Below the pieces are notes generated by a model. The model did no database searches. It worked only from the letters and a program-made list of their open reading frames with translations, and was not told the DNA's origin. Of a stretch of DNA of 44,983 nucleotides, positions 21,270-41,030 are shown piece by piece; position 1 is the first letter of the stretch, and the number at the start of each line of letters is the position of its first letter. Both the position numbers and the translations under genes were made by a program. The stretch comes from an uncultured Acidimicrobiales bacterium. GTDB lineage: Bacteria > Actinomycetota > Acidimicrobiia > Acidimicrobiales > SZUA-35. The stretch lies in contig CAKZXA010000008.1 of assembly GCA_937922045.1 (NCBI GenBank), positions 1-44,983 of the forward strand, in the 5' to 3' direction.

Positions 21270-23114
21270 GTGGCCTATGGCTCCTCATCTGACGAGACCC
21301 AGCCGGTCGGGCACGATCTCGGCGCGGGATCTCAATCGACATCCGTCGTTGCACCTGTGATGGGGATGACGCTTAGCGACCGCTACCAGCTGCGATCCCA
21401 CATCGCCTCAGGTGGCATGGCCCAGGTATGGCGGGCCCAAGACATGGTGCTCAATCGTCCGGTGGCTGTGAAAATCCTGCATGCCCACATGACGACCGAC
21501 GCGGCCTTCGTCGCCCGGTTCCGGCGAGAGGCAGTGGCCGCGGCCCGCCTCTCCCACGCATCGATCGTGGCCATCTACGACACCGTCAGCCAGCCCGGCC
21601 TTGAGGCCATCGTCATGGAGCTGATCGACGGCCGCACCCTGCGTACCATCCTCGACGAGACCCAGGTACTGCCCCCGGCCACCGTGGCCGATCTCGGCAT
21701 ACAGATCGCATCAGCGCTCAGTGAGGCCCATCGGGCTGGCATCGTGCACCGCGACATCAAGCCAGCCAACATCATGATCTCGTCCGACAATCGCGTGCTC
21801 GTCACCGACTTCGGTATCGCCAAAGCGACGGCAGATGCCGACCTCACCAGCGTCGGCACCCTGCTGGGCACGGCCAAGTATCTCTCCCCCGAACAGGTGA
21901 GTGGCGAACCGGTCGACCCGCGCTCGGACATCTATTCCCTTGGGGTCGTGATGTTTGAGGCCCTCACCGGGCGGCCCCCGTTTCACGCTGAGAACGATGC
22001 AGCCACCGCTCTAGCCCGTCTCAACCAGGACCCTCCCCGTTGCTCACAGTTCCGAGGCGACATCCCCCGCTCGCTCGATGATGTCGTCCACACGGCTATG
22101 GCTCGTGACCGCAATCTGCGCTATGACCGAGCGATCGGCCTCAAGGCAGCATTGGGTGCCGTCGATTTGAACGAGGGCCCAGGACCAACCGGCCAGACCA
22201 CGACCGACTGGACCGCCGAGTCGCCCTACGCCCCTGGTCCTTCCCACGCTCCTCCCCCACCACCCATGGCGGCAGGCGGAGTTGACGGCACCGCCGTCAT
22301 GCCAAGCGACCTGGTCCACACACCGGTCACACGAACCGGCCGAGATCGGCGCGGTCGAGGCCGAAAGGGCGGACGTCGCGACGCCGAGTCGGTGGCCCAG
22401 CCGATGCAGGAAACGGTTCAGGCCACCCCACCGCCTCCGGCCGCTGGGCAGCCGGTCACCAACGGTCGAGGCAAAAGAGACAGGAAGACACGAAAAGGGC
22501 GCGGCTGGTTTTCACGCCTTGTTGTTGCCGCCGCTCTCCTCGCTGGGCTCTTCGTAGCCTTCGCCCTGCTCTCAAACTCGCTCCAAGGCACAGCATCCGT
22601 CGAAGATGAGGCCGAAGGCTTCAATCCCAACGCCGGGTTCCCGATCGAATCAGCGATCCCGATCGACCCGCTCGGCGGCGGCAAAGAACGTCAGGATCTG
22701 GGCGTAAATGCCATCGATGACGACGTCACCACCCGCTGGCAATCCGAAACCTACAAGCGTGCTGCGCTTGGCGGTCTGAAAGATGGGCTCGGCATCGTGT
22801 TCACCCTCGATGACGTTCACGATCTGAACCGTATTGCTCTTCTTACTGACAACACGGGGTGGACGGCCGACCTCTACGTGCTCGCCGACGATTTCGATCC
22901 TGATGCTGTCGGCGTTGATGCCGCCTTCGATCCAGATGCTGAAGGCGAAAAAATCGGCGAGATAAGCGATGGCGGCATCGAGGAACGCATCCCCGTCGAC
23001 AGCGCTGGTCAAAAGATCCTTCTCTGGATCACCGAGACCGGCACCACCGAGGATGACGAAGGTACAGGCGGGACCGCCTTCCGTCTCGAACTGTTCGAGG
23101 TAACGGTTTCCTAG
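21270..23114 (+). CDS. Transmembrane Ser/Thr protein kinase with discoidin-like ectodomain
   Basis: 614 residues from a GTG. Kinase domain near 33-300: glycine loop ASGGMAQVWRA, VAVKIL lysine, HRDIKPANIM (near 160), DFGIAK (near 180), SPEQ, and SDIYSLGV; all catalytic residues are present. A Pro-rich, then basic linker (RGRGRKGGRR) leads to a membrane helix near 414-436. The extracellular C-terminus, with VNAIDDDVTTRWQSE, resembles F5/8-type discoidin-like domains. In mycobacteria the same order (pseudokinase, TM, discoidin-like domain) is fused to MurJ (MviN, Rv3910) at this locus. Here the kinase half stands alone and looks active. It probably senses wall precursors or sugars; the ligand is inferred. 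Confidence 0.9.
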   Translation: MAYGSSSDETQPVGHDLGAGSQSTSVVAPVMGMTLSDRYQLRSHIASGGMAQVWRAQDMVLNRPVAVKILHAHMTTDAAFVARFRREAVAAARLSHASIVAIYDTVSQPGLEAIVMELIDGRTLRTILDETQVLPPATVADLGIQIASALSEAHRAGIVHRDIKPANIMISSDNRVLVTDFGIAKATADADLTSVGTLLGTAKYLSPEQVSGEPVDPRSDIYSLGVVMFEALTGRPPFHAENDAATALARLNQDPPRCSQFRGDIPRSLDDVVHTAMARDRNLRYDRAIGLKAALGAVDLNEGPGPTGQTTTDWTAESPYAPGPSHAPPPPPMAAGGVDGTAVMPSDLVHTPVTRTGRDRRGRGRKGGRRDAESVAQPMQETVQATPPPPAAGQPVTNGRGKRDRKTRKGRGWFSRLVVAAALLAGLFVAFALLSNSLQGTASVEDEAEGFNPNAGFPIESAIPIDPLGGGKERQDLGVNAIDDDVTTRWQSETYKRAALGGLKDGLGIVFTLDDVHDLNRIALLTDNTGWTADLYVLADDFDPDAVGVDAAFDPDAEGEKIGEISDGGIEERIPVDSAGQKILLWITETGTTEDDEGTGGTAFRLELFEVTVS

Positions 23115-23153
23115 CCAAAGACAAGGTGCCAGACTCGGGGCGCACCGTCGATC

Positions 23154-23166
23154 TATACTTCCGGCA
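23154..23166 (+). promoter_or_regulatory. Candidate -10 element TATACT and leaderless start site of the ECF gene
   Basis: TATACT at 23154-23159 is a near-perfect -10 box. Seven bases downstream of its last base (23166) lies the A of an AUC codon in frame with the sigma factor. No convincing -35 is seen at the usual distance. The element lies 40 bp after the kinase stop codon. Confidence 0.45.
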
Positions 23167-23753
23167 TCGCACCCAGTGAGCACACGCGCCAGGCGGATGA
23201 GGAGCTTGTTTGCCGCGCCCAGGATGGGGAGCGAGGCGCCTGCGATGAGCTCCTCCGACGCCACTACGACCGCATCTACGCCATCTGTCGCCGACTCGCA
23301 GGCAACGATGCTGACGCAGCAGACGGATGCCAGGAAGCCTTGATGGCCATCGTGAAGGGGGTGGATCGGTTCGACGGTCGATCCAGCTTCAAGACGTGGA
23401 GCTATCGGGTGGCGACCAACGCCTGCCTCGATGAGATGCGCCGTCGTCAGCGCCGACCTCAACCGAGCGAGTCGGTGGCCCAGGGGCTTCTAGGCACTCA
23501 GATAACCGAGGACGCTTCCGAGCGCATTGTTGAACACGACCGCCTCGCTACCGCACTGCGTCAGCTGCCTGAGGAGTTTCGCCTACCCGTCGTGCTGCGC
23601 GATGTTGGTGGTCTTGACTATGCCGAGATCGCTGAAACCCTGAGCATTCCGCCAGGAACCGTGCGCTCTCGAATAGCGCGAGGCCGGCGCCAACTTTCAA
23701 CCGCTCTGGGGAACCAGAAGGCCCCCGAAGATCGTCATAGAACTGAGCAATAG
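23166..23753 (+). CDS. sigM: ECF RNA polymerase sigma factor, SigM-like, non-canonical start
   Basis: About 195 residues if started at 23166. Region 2 is DEELVCRAQDGERGACDELL ... AADGCQEALMAIVKGVDRF ... FKTWSYRVATNACLDEMRR; region 4 is ALRQLPEEFRLPVVLRDVGG, then YAEIAETLSIPPGTVRSRIARGR. Between the in-frame stop at 23112 and the TTG at 23340 there is no ATG, GTG, TTG or CTG in this frame, yet conserved region 2 begins near 23195. The TTG at 23340 would delete most of region 2. The best available start is ATC at 23166, where a leaderless mRNA from TATACT would begin. An alternative is a sequencing error. It is followed 17 bp later by its anti-sigma gene. Confidence 0.8.
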   Translation: MAPSEHTRQADEELVCRAQDGERGACDELLRRHYDRIYAICRRLAGNDADAADGCQEALMAIVKGVDRFDGRSSFKTWSYRVATNACLDEMRRRQRRPQPSESVAQGLLGTQITEDASERIVEHDRLATALRQLPEEFRLPVVLRDVGGLDYAEIAETLSIPPGTVRSRIARGRRQLSTALGNQKAPEDRHRTEQ

Positions 23754-23770
23754 GAATCACGTACATCCCC

Positions 23771-24748
23771 ATGACCGAAGAAGAACTCGACAACCTAGCG
23801 TCTACCTACCTAGACGGTGAGGCCAGCGCCGAAGAGGTGGCGCTGGTCGAGGGTGATCCCGCGCTTCTGACTCGGGTCGAAGAGTTTCGCTCGCTGGCCT
23901 TGCTTACCGCCGCTGAGGTTCTGCCGGATCCTCAGCTTCGGGAGCGGCAGTTGGCCGCTGCCCTATCCGCCTTCTCAACCTCAGGCGACGGAGAGACCTC
24001 TTCGCCCACCGAGTCGCCGGCACCGGTTATCGATCTGACCGAACGCCGCAAATCTGCCCCAACAGTGGCTAGCCGCCAGCAGCACAACCGCCAGCAATCC
24101 CCTGATGAGCTGCGAAAGCGACGTACGATGCCAGCCTGGCTGGCCCCAGCCGCTGGGCTGCTGGTTCTTCTCGCTGGTGGTGGGTGGCTTCTTTCGAACA
24201 GCACCTCATCGAATGACACCGAGACCGCAGCCCTCGAAATCACCGATGACACGGCCGACGATGCGGTCGAAGAGGCAGGTGAGACGGCCGGTTCGATGGA
24301 CGAGTCCGCCGAGGATGGCGATGATGCCGCCCTGCGAGCGAGCAGCGCCGAGATGGTCGAAGAAGAGTCGGTCGACTACGACGCCGACGATCAAGACGCC
24401 ATGTCCGAGGCCATGGAAGATGACGCTGAAGAGAGCGACGCAGCGGCTGAAGATACCGGGTCTCAACGTCCACTACTTCCGGCCTATACCGAGTACGGCC
24501 CAGGCGGGGTGTTCGATCCAACCGGCTTGACGTCTACCGACCTGGTCGATGACGAGTCGATTCCATGGGGTGATCCAGCCCAGGCCCGGTGCCAGGTAAC
24601 AGCCGATGATCTCGGCTACATCCTGCTCGGCTACTTGCCGGTCGACGTCGACCAGAGGCCGAGCGAACTCCTCCTGTTCGACGACGGTGCCGGGCAGCGC
24701 ATAGTCGAGCGGGTTGACGAGAGCTGCACGATAGTTGCCTTGCCCTAG
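23771..24748 (+). CDS. Anti-sigma factor, membrane protein partner of the ECF sigma
   Basis: 325 residues. The N-terminus (EEELDNLASTYLDGEAS) is the short acidic helical anti-sigma type, without an obvious HxxxCxxC zinc motif. A basic stretch precedes one membrane helix (WLAPAAGLLVLLAGGGWLLS, near 123-142). The outside part is a very acidic Asp/Glu/Ala linker followed by a small domain of ~90 residues with two Cys (ARCQV, ESCTIV). Position right after the ECF gene matches the mycobacterial sigM-anti-sigma pair (Rv3911-Rv3912). It presumably holds the sigma factor at the membrane until an envelope signal arrives. Confidence 0.8.
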   Translation: MTEEELDNLASTYLDGEASAEEVALVEGDPALLTRVEEFRSLALLTAAEVLPDPQLRERQLAAALSAFSTSGDGETSSPTESPAPVIDLTERRKSAPTVASRQQHNRQQSPDELRKRRTMPAWLAPAAGLLVLLAGGGWLLSNSTSSNDTETAALEITDDTADDAVEEAGETAGSMDESAEDGDDAALRASSAEMVEEESVDYDADDQDAMSEAMEDDAEESDAAAEDTGSQRPLLPAYTEYGPGGVFDPTGLTSTDLVDDESIPWGDPAQARCQVTADDLGYILLGYLPVDVDQRPSELLLFDDGAGQRIVERVDESCTIVALP

Positions 24749-36990: not shown

Positions 36991-38538
36991 CTAGGAGGCT
37001 CGCTCGATAACGACGAACTCGCCAACCGGGTCGCCCGACCCGGCGACGTCACGGGCCCAAGCTCGTAGTCGATACTTTCCCGGGGCGAGTTGATCGGCGG
37101 GGAAGACGTAGCTCCACGGGGTTTCAGTCTGGCCCACTTCGGCCACCGCCACTTCGAAACGTACGAACGCCGGTTGAAAACGTTCGACCGTCGGGTCCCA
37201 ATAGGCGTTGGTGTTCAGTTGTCGTAGCACGAGCTGCACCAAGGCAACACCGTCGGCGGCGCGCGCCGTACCCCGAACCTCAAGATCGCCCGCGACGAGT
37301 TCATCCTCCACCGGTCGCTCGATATAGGCACGAGGTGAGAAGGGGAACGGGTCGCTCGTCGTGGGACGAGCTTCGGTGGTCGTCGACGTCGACGTCGAGG
37401 CGGTTGTCATCGGGACGGTGGAGGAGACTGAGGTGCTGCCCGACATCGCCCCATCTGCCTCCGCCCTACTCGATTGAAGGCTCGATTGCGTGGTGATGGC
37501 TAGAGCAACCGAAGCGGTAACCGTCGTCGATGTCAGCTCCGTCTCGGGATCGAGCGCGTCCTGATCCAGGGCGAGCCGACGATCGGGCTCTGCAGCCAGC
37601 ACCGCCCAACCGGCCAGACCGGCCAGTAGCGCCCCGACCGCAGCAGCCCCCGCGACCAGAAGCCGCCGGCCGAAGAAGCGAGGAGGCCGAGGCCGCGCTT
37701 CGGGGTCCTCCAGCATCGCCCGGTGGAAGGCTTCGTACCACTCATCGATGGTCTGGTAGCGATCGTCGGGATCAACCGCAGTCCCCACGGCAACGAATCC
37801 GCTGAGACGATCGTTCAACGCTGAACCATCGGTCAACCAGCCGATGATGGCGCTGGCGCTGTAAAGATCGGCGCGCCGATCGACGATAGAAACCGAATCT
37901 CGTTGCTCAGGGGCAGCGAAGCCCTCGGTGCCACCTCCACGGGTGAGGCCTGAGGCATCCGCCAGCCGTTTAGCAAACCCGAGGTCGGAGAGCAGCAGTC
38001 GTTCATCAGGCTCGACAAGCGCCGCGTCCCCATCCTCGTTTCCCGGTGACGTCGGGCGGGCGGCTGCTCGATCGCCGCACAGCAAAATGTTTGATGGGGA
38101 GATATCTCGGTGCACCACCGCATGACGATGAAGTTCGCTCAGCGCATCGCGCAGATGTTTGGCCACCGTCCAGATGTCGTGCTCGCCAACGCGGTAACCC
38201 TGGCTAGAAAGATCCTTCACCCGGTCGTTGAGATCACCGCGATTAGCCAGCTCAAGCACCATGAACGGCTGGCCACCTTCCGTTTCGCCTACCTCATAGA
38301 TAGTGGCGATCGACGGGTGCCGAATCTGGGCAAGCAGTGTCCATTCCTCACTGAACCGGCGGCGGCTCTCAGCCACCATGCTGTGATTGTCGGCCAAGAG
38401 CTTGATCGCCACATGGAACGAATCGCCGGGCCGAACAGCCCGATAAACCGTGGAAGACGCACCAACCCCGAGGAGAGCAATAATTCGGTACTGGCCGATA
38501 AACCGAGCCGTGCGCGACGACCCGGCTGGATTAATCAT
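36991..38538 (-). CDS. Transmembrane Ser/Thr kinase with Ig-like ectodomain shared with GH26 neighbour
   Basis: 515 residues from the ATG at 38538 (GTG at 38547 is an alternative). Kinase: YRIIALLGVGASSTVYRA, VAIKLL, HRDISPSNILL (near 141; the Lys of HRDLKPxN is Ser), DLGFAK in place of DFG (near 184), and AAPEQ. A membrane helix lies near 291-312, then a Ser/Thr-rich stalk (TTASTSTSTTTEARPTTSD). The outer domain (~403-515) has DELVAGDLEVRGTARAADGV, AYWDPTVERFQPAF, WSYVFP and GKYRLRAWARDVAGSGD. It aligns with the N-terminal domain of the secreted glycosidase two genes upstream. The start overlaps the sigma gene end by 8 nt. Confidence 0.88.
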   Translation of the reverse strand: MINPAGSSRTARFIGQYRIIALLGVGASSTVYRAVRPGDSFHVAIKLLADNHSMVAESRRRFSEEWTLLAQIRHPSIATIYEVGETEGGQPFMVLELANRGDLNDRVKDLSSQGYRVGEHDIWTVAKHLRDALSELHRHAVVHRDISPSNILLCGDRAAARPTSPGNEDGDAALVEPDERLLLSDLGFAKRLADASGLTRGGGTEGFAAPEQRDSVSIVDRRADLYSASAIIGWLTDGSALNDRLSGFVAVGTAVDPDDRYQTIDEWYEAFHRAMLEDPEARPRPPRFFGRRLLVAGAAAVGALLAGLAGWAVLAAEPDRRLALDQDALDPETELTSTTVTASVALAITTQSSLQSSRAEADGAMSGSTSVSSTVPMTTASTSTSTTTEARPTTSDPFPFSPRAYIERPVEDELVAGDLEVRGTARAADGVALVQLVLRQLNTNAYWDPTVERFQPAFVRFEVAVAEVGQTETPWSYVFPADQLAPGKYRLRAWARDVAGSGDPVGEFVVIERAS

Positions 38539-39331
38539 CGGTGCCACCTAGCGGTCGCATCCCTGGGCGCCCGTTCGACGCATCCCAGATCTCGGTCAGC
38601 AAGTGGCGCCCGCGAGACAGACGCGACTTCACCGTGTTGATCGAAACATCTTGTCGTGCCGCGATCTCGCTGTAAGACAATCGCTCGACATCGCGGAGAA
38701 AGACCGTCTCGCGAAAGGCGACGGGTAGTTGGGCGACCGCCGACTCGATAAGTTGACGTTCGGCCACGAGAGAACTCATTCGGCGGGGCCACCAACGAGC
38801 CGAGCCGACCGATTGATCGGCGGTGTCAAAGCCCGTATCGACCCCCGCCGACGGCAAGGCGAGGGTCGGTCGAAGTCGGCGGGTCTCAGAGACGGCCACG
38901 TTGCGAGCTACCGAATAGAGCCAGGTCGTAAACTTCGATTCACTACGGAAACGATGAATGGAACGGGCGACGGCGATCAACACCGATTGCTCCACGTCTT
39001 CGCGGTTCGCACGCTCTACGCCAGCCGAGGCAATGGCGACCGCGCTCAGGTGAAAATCGTCGACGATGCTCAGCAAGACAGAGAGGGCGTAGGGGCAATC
39101 AGCGCTGGCTCGCTCGGCCACTGCGTCGATCAGTTCGGTCTGGAAATCGGCATCGGCCGACTCATAGAGCGTCAGCAGGCGAGCCTCGGCCACGGCGGCT
39201 CCCGTCGACAGCCAATCGAGCAGACCACCGAGCACAGAGTCGTCCGACCCACCGCCATCGATCGATTCTTGCCCACCCTCAGGAGCCCGCCGTCTGCTCA
39301 CTCGAACCACGCTAATGGGTGATGCCTCCAT
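38531..39331 (-). CDS. ECF sigma factor with N-terminal extension, kinase-linked
   Basis: 266 residues if begun at the ATG at 39331; a frame up to 39373 would pass through a terminator-like hairpin and is less likely. Region 2: EDVEQSVLIAVARSIHRF, ESKFTTWLYSVARNVAVSE; region 4: AVAQLPVAFRETVFLRDVER, then YSEIAARQDVSINTVKSRLS. Ahead of region 2 lie ~100 residues of unfamiliar helical sequence (LTLYESADADFQTELIDAVA). No anti-sigma gene adjoins it; instead the Ser/Thr kinase follows with overlapping reading frames. Several ECF groups are encoded beside Ser/Thr kinases and, in the Vibrio EcfP-PknT case, are activated by phosphorylation, so such control is a reasonable inference. Confidence 0.85.
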   Translation of the reverse strand: MEASPISVVRVSRRRAPEGGQESIDGGGSDDSVLGGLLDWLSTGAAVAEARLLTLYESADADFQTELIDAVAERASADCPYALSVLLSIVDDFHLSAVAIASAGVERANREDVEQSVLIAVARSIHRFRSESKFTTWLYSVARNVAVSETRRLRPTLALPSAGVDTGFDTADQSVGSARWWPRRMSSLVAERQLIESAVAQLPVAFRETVFLRDVERLSYSEIAARQDVSINTVKSRLSRGRHLLTEIWDASNGRPGMRPLGGTDD

Positions 39332-39338
39332 CACCAAG

Positions 39339-39376
39339 CGGGTGCCCAGATCGACCGGCCATGATCTGGGCACCCG
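39339..39376 (-). terminator. Perfect 14-bp hairpin between GH26 and sigma genes
   Basis: CGGGTGCCCAGATC (39339-39352) and GATCTGGGCACCCG (39363-39376) form a perfect stem with a 10-nt loop. It lies 13 bp after the GH26 stop and 7 bp before the sigma start. No T-run follows, so partial termination or attenuation that sets different levels of glycosidase and sigma/kinase is plausible. Confidence 0.6.
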
Positions 39377-39389
39377 GGCCGCCGTCTTG

Positions 39390-40883
39390 TTACTCCCAGG
39401 AGGCGACGAAGTTGGGGTCTTGGAGCAGGCGCCGGAAGGCTTCTAATGAATCGGTTGAACTGTCGAGTGCCCACTCACAGTACTGAACCGACCCATCGCT
39501 ACGGCGACCCTCGGTATCGAAGTAGACAGCCGCCTTGATCCGATCGAAGTTGACGGGCATGTCACGACGGGCATCGTCGAACCACTCGGCCTTCGATTGC
39601 GTGGAGTTGATGGCATTGTCGTTCTCTTCACTACCCCACTCGCCAACCATGAAGGGCTTGTCAAGGCCCGGACGGCCAGGGCCATCGGCTTCGAGCCAGG
39701 TGTAGAAGGGGCTGTAGACCTCGGCGAAGCTCGTCCACTTCGGCGAGTTTCCATGGTTGTCGCAGCCATGCCAGTTGTAGTTGTTGTAGGACACCCAATC
39801 GATCACGTCATCGCCGGGGTAGAGGCCGGCTTCGTAGAGGCGATAGTGGCCGCTCCAACCCATCACGTTCCACACCCACACAACGTTGTCGGCGCCGGCT
39901 TGCTCAAACCTGCGGTGAAGATGACGGAAGGCGGCGGCGTAATCGGTCACCAGCTGATCCTCGACCGTGATATCTCCATTGGCCGCACGTTTGATGTTGT
40001 CTTCGGGCTCGTGGAAGAAGGTGAGGAACACCGAATCGCCGAATCGCTTCACCTGTTCGGCCGCAATCTGAATATCAGCGTCGAACTCACCCGCTGCGAT
40101 ACGCCGCCAATCGGCGGGCGTACCCGAAGGCGATTTCCAGTTGGCGAAAATGATGTGACCAGAATCGGCGATGGCCTGCGTCTCGGGGTGAGGCCAACTC
40201 TTGGTTACCAGGTCGTTCCACTGGTTGTATTCGTGAAAGATGGCGAACCGTTCGCCGAGCCGTTCCTCTTGGCGCACGAAGTCGGCTCTGGCAGATTGCC
40301 AGGAACCATCGTCGGCCCGAAAGTCGCCGCTGCTGCCGACGAGGATGCCCTCGCACGGAATCAGCTTGTCACGATCGCCACACGGCTCCGGGTCGGGAGG
40401 CACAACGATCACCGACCGGTAGGAGAACTCGTTCAGATCGCCGCCAAAGGAATCACCGTTGCCATCCACACTGAAGGCGAAGCCACGGGCCCGATATCGG
40501 GCGCTGACCAGAACCTCTTCTGGAACCTGGTAGCTCCACGACACGCTCTTCGCTCCGGGCTTGTCCAGCTCGGCCAACACTCTCACGAACTCGGCCTGCC
40601 ATGACGCTCCGTTCCAGTACGTCGAGTCGTCGAGGTTTTTGACCACAAGCCTCACGCCGGCAACCCCTCGCTTGTGTTGGGCCCGACCAGCCACGAGCAG
40701 GTCACCTCCCTTGACCAACGTGTCTTGCTCGGGCGACAACACCGTTGTTTGTGGCGAGGTGCGACCAGCAGCCAACGCCGGCGCGGCCAAGCCAAACGAG
40801 ATAGTGGCGAGGGCAAGAAGTATCGCCAGCGCCCTCGTCACCCCTTTTGGCCTAGCTGTCTTGGGTTCTTCTCGGTCGTACAC
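39390..40883 (-). CDS. Secreted GH26-like beta-mannanase/endoglycosidase with N-terminal Ig-like domain
   Basis: 497 residues from a GTG (CGGAGAGC upstream). Signal peptide: basic start, then ALAILLALATISFGLAAPALA, cleaved near 39. Residues ~45-150 are an Ig-like domain (DTLVKGGDLLVAGRAQHKRG, YWNGASWQAEF, WSYQVP, ARYRARGFAFSVDGNGD). The catalytic (beta/alpha)8 part has acid/base Glu in FLTFFHEPEDN (near 291) and nucleophile Glu in FMVGEWGSEEN (near 415), with VWVWNVMGWSGHYRLYEAG and WVSYNNYN between. GH26 enzymes cut mannans or related glucans; exact polymer unknown. It leads a minus-strand set: glycosidase, sigma, kinase. Confidence 0.85.
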   Translation of the reverse strand: MYDREEPKTARPKGVTRALAILLALATISFGLAAPALAAGRTSPQTTVLSPEQDTLVKGGDLLVAGRAQHKRGVAGVRLVVKNLDDSTYWNGASWQAEFVRVLAELDKPGAKSVSWSYQVPEEVLVSARYRARGFAFSVDGNGDSFGGDLNEFSYRSVIVVPPDPEPCGDRDKLIPCEGILVGSSGDFRADDGSWQSARADFVRQEERLGERFAIFHEYNQWNDLVTKSWPHPETQAIADSGHIIFANWKSPSGTPADWRRIAAGEFDADIQIAAEQVKRFGDSVFLTFFHEPEDNIKRAANGDITVEDQLVTDYAAAFRHLHRRFEQAGADNVVWVWNVMGWSGHYRLYEAGLYPGDDVIDWVSYNNYNWHGCDNHGNSPKWTSFAEVYSPFYTWLEADGPGRPGLDKPFMVGEWGSEENDNAINSTQSKAEWFDDARRDMPVNFDRIKAAVYFDTEGRRSDGSVQYCEWALDSSTDSLEAFRRLLQDPNFVASWE

Positions 40884-41030
40884 GACGCTCTCCGCTCTTC
40901 GTTCATAGGTGATTTGTGGGTATGTCGCTCAGAGCCCCCGTAAATGTTCCCGCTAGGCAAACACTTCTTCGGCGACGAGGCACGGGTGGCAAAGTTCACA
41001 TCGCCATGAACGTGCCCGAGGAATAAATAG

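Follow-up and report, generated by a model that had tools for sequence, protein, structure and literature searches.

Closest described systems and the locus

In the RsgI/SigI systems of Clostridium thermocellum, a sigma factor is under the control of a membrane regulator, part of which lies outside the cell and binds polysaccharide, and the regulon of this sigma factor comprises secreted polysaccharide-degrading enzymes (available parts of PMC4711584). RsgI is an anti-sigma factor, SigI resembles the extracytoplasmic function (ECF) sigma factors to some extent, and the GH10 module of RsgI6 is 57% identical to Xyn10D, the outer domain of the sensor resembling a target enzyme (same parts of PMC4711584). 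ECF sigma factors may also be paired with kinases. EcfK of Xanthomonas citri is phosphorylated by PknS in sigma2.2 and in the sigma2–sigma4 linker and is activated by this (PMC13147305, in the parts available), and EcfP of Vibrio parahaemolyticus, like EcfK a member of group ECF43, is encoded next to the transmembrane Hanks-type kinase PknT and is likewise activated by phosphorylation (PMC8999054, in part). Group ECF43 is defined by the loss of the acidic DAED motif in sigma2.2, with Ser/Thr in its place (same part of PMC8999054). To judge by the available parts of two reviews, few kinase-paired ECF sigma factors have a known regulon or cue. Here we describe a locus on a stretch of 44,983 nucleotides (the window; contig CAKZXA010000008.1) from an uncultured Acidimicrobiales bacterium, in which a tight operon on the minus strand (36991-40883) encodes a glycoside hydrolase family 26 (GH26) type enzyme, an ECF sigma factor and a membrane Ser/Thr kinase, the enzyme and the kinase carrying homologous immunoglobulin-like (Ig-like) domains.

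We put at roughly 60% the probability that the three genes form an autoregulated circuit which senses an extracellular glycan and induces matching glycosidases. In such a circuit the kinase would display its Ig-like domain outside the cell, where the ectodomain would meet the cue: a glycan, its breakdown products, or secreted enzymes on it. The inner kinase domain would then activate the partner ECF sigma factor, probably by phosphorylation. The activated sigma factor would read the promoter GGGAACATTT-N13-GCGAC before the GH26–sigma–kinase operon, giving positive feedback, and also the copy of this promoter before an unlinked gene for a GH16-like glucanase. The reading of the promoter by the triad sigma factor is strongly indicated, and activation by the kinase is suggested by analogy with EcfK/PknS and EcfP/PknT. 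What the Ig-like domain senses can be proposed more loosely; because both enzymes have beta-glucanase-type relatives, a beta-1,3/1,4-glucan would be our guess. Together, the sequence-defined promoter, the two-site regulon and the sensor domain common with the target enzymes make a complete and testable circuit.

The closest logic is that of RsgI/SigI, in which, in the available parts of PMC4711584, an external module of the regulator similarly resembles an enzyme under its control. Unlike an RsgI anti-sigma N-terminal domain acting with SigI, the membrane partner in the window has a Ser/Thr kinase domain, with no RsgI domain in a Pfam scan up to E 1, the sigma factor is of the ECF type, and binding by the Ig-like domain is putative. 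SigI is itself not known as an ECF sigma factor. If the circuit is real, the sharing of modules between sensor and enzyme would have arisen again with a Ser/Thr kinase. The parts of the circuit are those of the pairs of ECF sigma factor and Ser/Thr kinase (PMC8999054 and PMC8103513, in the parts available): as in EcfK/PknS and EcfP/PknT, the sigma gene adjoins the gene of a transmembrane Hanks-type kinase with an outer domain, but the triad sigma factor is acidic at the DAED position (NRED) with no Ser/Thr there, and the outer domain and the predicted regulon of two glycosidases differ from what those parts describe. An earlier note on this DNA, made from the sequence alone, had known of no described system with this layout, and no paper on the combination was found in open-licence PMC text.

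Operon and its conservation

The earlier note had the coordinates and the common strand of the three genes right. The GH26-type gene comes first, followed after a 16-nt gap by the sigma gene and then by the kinase gene, the listed start of which overlaps the sigma gene by 17 nt. The sigma gene lies between the enzyme and kinase genes, with the gene of a membrane Ser/Thr kinase adjacent and no anti-sigma gene beside it, as in other ECF–kinase pairs.

Close relatives of the GH26-type enzyme (63-64% identity) were present in four of the 39 genomes of the family, the genome of the window (G000, 4.88 Mb) included, and in all four the GH26 gene was followed on the same strand by an ECF gene and then a kinase gene. 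The contig of G031 breaks off within the kinase gene, so that the outer domain is not visible there. The earlier note would have counted its reading as refuted had homologues of the three genes never occurred together in related genomes; the survey located the triad in three other genomes, which also rules out an accident of one genome. The ECF–kinase pair was more widespread than the triad, and the Ig-like domain was carried by a kinase of such a pair in nine of the 39 genomes. The evidence is comparative throughout. Such comparison establishes the gene order, the domain homology and the conservation, as well as the promoter motif and the way in which this motif follows the sigma clades. As the genomes are related and their assemblies fragmented, the counts cannot be treated as independent, and an apparent absence may reflect a gap.

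In G030 the position of GH26 in the triad, upstream of the pair of ECF and domain-bearing kinase genes, is taken by a gene (L030:8899-14001) for a very large repeat protein, which runs off the stretch. DUF11/DUF7507 matches were found in the 699 amino acids scanned, and the protein has a C-terminal hydrophobic segment.

Predicted promoter shared with an unlinked GH16-like gene

The predicted promoter is separated from the GH26 start codon by 40 nt. The genome of the window contained exactly two exact copies, one before the GH26 gene and the other before the GH16-like gene on contig C12, and no matches to the reversed control pattern. A profile search found four copies of the Ig-like domain in this genome, distributed among three genes (kinase, GH26 and GH16), and all three lie behind the two promoter copies. 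The sites of the ATTT-N13 type and the domain-bearing genes coincided likewise in G032 and, within the limits of their assemblies, in G024 and G031. The tie of the promoter to a second domain-bearing enzyme, together with the domain homology and the triad, lends the notion of enzymes regulated together with a sensor of their own far more strength than gene order would by itself.

The motif GGGAAC(A/T)TTT-N12/13-GCGAC was seen by eye before four GH26 and three GH16-like genes, in seven of the seven regions, and these seven were among the sites later scored. Independent support for it comes from its specificity in the own genome, from the absence of control matches, from the additional sites and from the way in which it follows the sigma clade. 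Among the 39 family genomes, 21 matches were found in 13 genomes, with no matches to the reversed control. When the first G was left out of the pattern, 20 sites were detected in 11 of the 12 genomes of the genus, with one control match; the one genus genome in which no site was detected, G025, has no close kinase either (best E 2.9e-13). The motif was present in 12 of the 14 genomes with a close kinase (E 1e-60 or better, our own cut-off) and in one of the 25 without (Fisher p 3e-7, uncorrected for kinship). The single match in G003 (ATTT, N14), a genome with no close kinase, looks like chance.

Sites of the ATTT-N13 type were found only in the four genomes with a triad sigma factor (seven of seven): four before GH26, two before GH16 (G000 and G031) and one before a presumed GH16 gene in G024. 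The last, outside the seven regions read by eye, lies 88 nt before a contig end, ahead of a start resembling a GH16 signal peptide, and would belong to a GH16 gene cut off on another contig. The flanks and spacers of the seven ATTT-N13 sites are only 29-34% alike, the boxes being identical by construction of the pattern; conservation of the region as a whole therefore does not account for the boxes. A looser pattern gave two extra matches against four control matches over 12 genomes and was left unused. A scan of the own genome allowing three mismatches returned the two exact sites alone, where by estimate a few chance matches would have been expected; with a shorter pattern, one extra match with three mismatches was found in the window by itself. 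The scan may therefore not list all mismatched sites and is not leaned on.

The GH16 assignment rests on weak phmmer similarity to a beta-1,3(4)-glucanase (9e-6) and a laminarinase (4e-4), and on the sequence GEFDVAE, which we take to be the ExDxxE motif of GH16. The Pfam GH16 model gave no match at 0.01.

Sigma factor predicted to read the promoter

The triad sigma factors formed one clade (100/100), and the type of promoter followed the sigma clades: ATTT-N13 occurred with the triad sigma factors and TTTT-N12 with related kinase-paired ones. Except for one N13 site in G034, the remaining sites of the genus were of the TTTT-N12 type, including that of the GH16 gene in G030, a genome with no triad sigma factor. 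Three genomes (G024, G031 and G032) hold both kinds of sigma factor and both kinds of promoter. Ten positions separate the triad sigma factors from nearly all of 14 others, some of these being incomplete at the N terminus. Two of the ten, S244 and K249, are in region 4.2, presumably in the recognition helix by the general domain layout. Combined, the clade tracking, the genomes with both kinds and the triad-specific positions make the sigma factor of the operon the likely reader of the promoter. That the two sigma clades divide between ATTT and TTTT promoters, in part within a single genome, offers a natural case of a change in sigma specificity.

The genome of the window also holds two further related ECF–kinase pairs, on contigs C44 and C46, and the contig stretches of these pairs contained no copy of the Ig-like domain. 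One of these paralogous sigma factors (38% identity) might read the promoter, the sigma factor of the operon serving other genes, and the promoters of related pairs do share the GGAAC and GCGAC boxes; the confinement of ATTT-N13 to the four triad-sigma genomes, and its position before the sigma operon itself, nevertheless make this very unlikely.

Ig-like domain of the kinase and the enzymes

The earlier note had aligned the kinase ectodomain with the N-terminal domain of the enzyme. BLASTP bore this out with 40 of 107 residues identical (37%, E 6e-15), which rules out chance similarity, and the residue ranges it had given were right to within a few residues, the domain lying at 405-507 of the kinase and 44-145 of the enzyme. 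AlphaFold2 predicted the kinase copy as an all-beta fold. The nearest solved folds were Ig-like domains of sulfite oxidases (Foldseek TMq 0.67; VIA Z 12.6, root-mean-square deviation 2.4 over 100 residues), followed by modules of glycosidases (VIA Z 11.1 for CelAly B1, 9.9 for the FN3-like module of CbhA and 9.6 for a mannanase); a porphyran-binding module was at Foldseek rank 37. A fold match of this kind by itself shows no function. Pfam scans of the window proteins and selected relatives gave no match to a carbohydrate-binding module, and placed the domain as a distant relative of Gmad2/Big_7, below the cut-off in the window proteins and above the Gmad2 cut-off in two GH16-like proteins.

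Within the own family, the secreted GH16-like proteins of G000, G024 (incomplete), G030 and G031 have two copies of the domain, and metallophosphoesterase-type proteins in G003, G012 and G013 have one each (Pfam assignment for G003 only). A wide spread of the subtype was not seen: among 395 sampled genomes of the class, for each of which no more than 11 candidates were scored, every match below 1e-30 belonged to the own family. An iterated profile had drifted to generic Ig repeats (L008 and L009), and a hand-picked alignment of 18 rows was used afterwards.

A tree of 24 copies placed nine kinase copies in one group and 15 enzyme copies in the other (96/96), with the GH26 copies joining the first GH16 copy (97/95). 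The inner branches were weak in 11 of 21 cases, and the program warned of long branches. Three sulfatase copies of G027, all copies of L009 and that of L008 were omitted as more distant. By this grouping the two copies in the operon are old relatives and not a recent duplicate, and recent copying within the operon was ruled out by the tree. The mean identity between kinase and GH26 copies was about 27%, with 33% within the own genome.

Several observations weigh against the circuit proposed. Nine genomes have a domain-bearing kinase, and in five of them (G001, G026, G027, G033 and G034) the search yielded no glycosidase with the domain; of these five, G001 is only 87% and G026 only 83% complete. 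This speaks against a simple rule of a shared ligand. The separate grouping of the kinase and enzyme copies and their low mean identity mean that the ligands may differ. The nearest solved folds are those of sulfite oxidases, not carbohydrate-binding modules. The two other ECF–kinase pairs of the own genome could in principle read the promoter, and clade-specific residues such as S244 and K249 are expected in any clade and lend weak support. Finally, a structured RNA (see below) stands behind the sole promoter site in G026, G027 and G033 and behind one of three in G034. The suggestion of the earlier note, that the kinase senses the polymer on which the enzyme acts, or the enzyme itself, and signals to the sigma factor, held in part: the homologous outer domains, the conserved triad and the promoter shared with an unlinked domain-bearing enzyme favour it, but the five genomes speak against a simple shared-ligand rule.

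The same five genomes, and the metallophosphoesterase-type proteins, would fit an Ig-like domain that is a generic secreted module (a spacer, or for dimerisation or cell-wall anchoring), the pair answering another cue such as envelope stress and the glycosidases being mere output, for example for remodelling of the own matrix. The promoter pattern has no exact match in G012 or G013, and its match in G003 is on another contig and chance-like, which agrees with such a module, as do the sulfite-oxidase fold and the distant Gmad2/Big_7 relationship. The coincidence of domain-bearing genes with genes behind the promoter, in the own genome and for ATTT-N13 in three relatives, is not what this explanation predicts, and we consider it rather unlikely. 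The Ig-like domain of sulfite oxidases is a dimerisation domain. The sharing of one domain family by enzyme and kinase, and this nearest fold, would also suit a kinase which senses the enzyme instead of the polymer, the Ig-like domains pairing and the enzyme altering kinase dimerisation as a feedback on enzyme supply; with five genomes in which domain-bearing kinases occur and no domain-bearing glycosidase partner was found, this is clearly unlikely.

A sulfatase of G027 (L094:4419-6974) gave weaker domain matches and contains three more distant copies of the Ig-like domain.

Features of the encoded proteins

Residues 204-486 of the enzyme matched a solved GH26 enzyme listed as Endoglucanase H (phmmer, E 1.5e-21), PDB 2bv9, which we take to be the lichenase CtLic26A. 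About 280 residues of the catalytic region align, with the two conserved Glu motifs, HEPE (291-294) and GEWGS (414-418), in register; their Glu residues are presumably the catalytic ones of GH26. Compared to CtLic26A, the window enzyme is distant (E about 1e-21) and has an extra Ig-like domain. The sequence relationship and both Glu motifs place the enzyme in GH26; the lack of a match to the Pfam GH26 model up to E 1 counts against this. The N terminus has a hydrophobic stretch of the signal type. The AlphaFold model of the whole protein was poor (mean predicted local distance difference test, pLDDT, 62) and was left unused.

The sigma factor matched PF04542 (E 1.7e-9), PF08281 (E 1.4e-12) and the sigma70-ECF model TIGR02937 (3.4e-18); it has sigma2 and sigma4 with no sigma3 match listed, as is typical of ECF sigma factors. 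At the DAED-type position, placed by eye, it has NRED and the three triad relatives have DLAD. Being still acidic there, the window sigma factor does not copy the ECF43 mechanism, and the triad sigma factors fall outside that group. The serine pair of the linker (RRMSS in the window) was kept in the 18 sigma factors of the tree set and in both paralogues of the own genome, and is the best candidate for a phosphorylation site of the triad sigma factor.

The kinase has a single transmembrane segment, followed by a linker rich in Ser/Thr (by eye) and the C-terminal outer domain. An outer domain is absent from the paired kinases of G028 and G029 and from those of the second pairs in G024, G031 and G032: all five that were read end right after the transmembrane segment.

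Table 1. Positions of the operon, its predicted promoter and the unlinked GH16-like gene (window coordinates except where a locus is named).
Feature	Position	Strand	Basis or remark
Predicted ECF promoter GGGAACATTT-N13-GCGAC	40924..40951	-	-35-like 40942-40951, -10-like 40924-40928
Secreted GH26-type glycoside hydrolase, 497 aa	39390..40883	-	phmmer to Endoglucanase H, Glu motifs
Enzyme N-terminal Ig-like domain, aa 38-155	40419..40772	-	BLASTP, profile
GH26 catalytic region, aa 204-486	39426..40274	-	phmmer match
ECF sigma factor, 280 aa	38531..39373	-	PF04542, PF08281, TIGR02937
Ser200-Ser201 in sigma2-sigma4 linker (RRMSSLVAE), candidate phosphosite	38771..38776	-	kept serine pair
Region 4.2 residues S244 and K249, specific to triad sigma factors	38627..38644	-	14 other sigma factors have R at 249
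Membrane Ser/Thr kinase, 518 aa	36991..38547	-	PF00069 E 8.5e-28
Cytoplasmic kinase domain, aa 20-241, VAIK, HRD and DLG motifs	37825..38490	-	Pfam, motifs
Transmembrane segment, about aa 295-320	37588..37665	-	hydropathy
Kinase C-terminal Ig-like ectodomain, aa 399-517	36997..37353	-	BLASTP, profile, AlphaFold2 mean pLDDT 97
Unlinked GH16-like glucanase gene	L022:7039-8895		two Ig-like domain copies; phmmer

The genes flanking the operon belong to the PNPOx and PALP families (Pfam scan). Elsewhere in the window (21270-24748), a second kinase gene and an ECF-like gene are followed by that of a possible anti-sigma protein; judging by the look of the genes, this is probably an ordinary actinobacterial sigma/anti-sigma locus.

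Structured RNA and other promoter sites in relatives

A promoter of the TTTT-N12 type was located directly before a structured RNA of about 120 nt in nine loci (L104, L105, L106, L108, L109, L110, L113, L163 and L164). In seven sequences, 17 of the 39 predicted pairs had changes on both sides. Rfam gave nothing for this RNA up to E 1 in the seven of nine loci scanned, apart from one unrelated sub-threshold match in L113. A covariance model detected the RNA at E 4.2e-8 or better in nine of the 12 genus genomes and not in G000, G025 and G030, the match in G023 being weak (5e-4). All nine RNA genomes have the promoter, with another base in place of the first G in two of them, and several of the loci adjoin ABC-transporter-like genes (by eye). 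The RNA looks undescribed and appears to be controlled by kinase-paired ECF sigma factors.

Tentatively, and at somewhat less than even odds, the locus may represent a polysaccharide-sensing circuit of a new type, with a Hanks-type kinase in the role of the anti-sigma factor and one outer domain family common to the kinase and all the regulated enzymes, so that the cell would sample whatever those enzymes bind. In the genus, the parent system would control the structured RNA. In the triad lineage it would have given rise to two copies, one for sensing (its kinase with the outer domain, the enzymes, ATTT-N13) and one whose kinase is without the outer domain (RNA, TTTT-N12).

Further sites in G001, G002 and G034 (L100, L101, L111 and L112) have long hairpins (fold z -4 to -7) and no clear protein downstream of them; those of L100 and L101 lie on the strand opposite the kinase gene and point to its 3' end. 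One more promoter site, in G030 (L114, contig C10), stands before a gene for a lipoprotein-like protein with an OmpA domain, and another kinase gene lies alongside.

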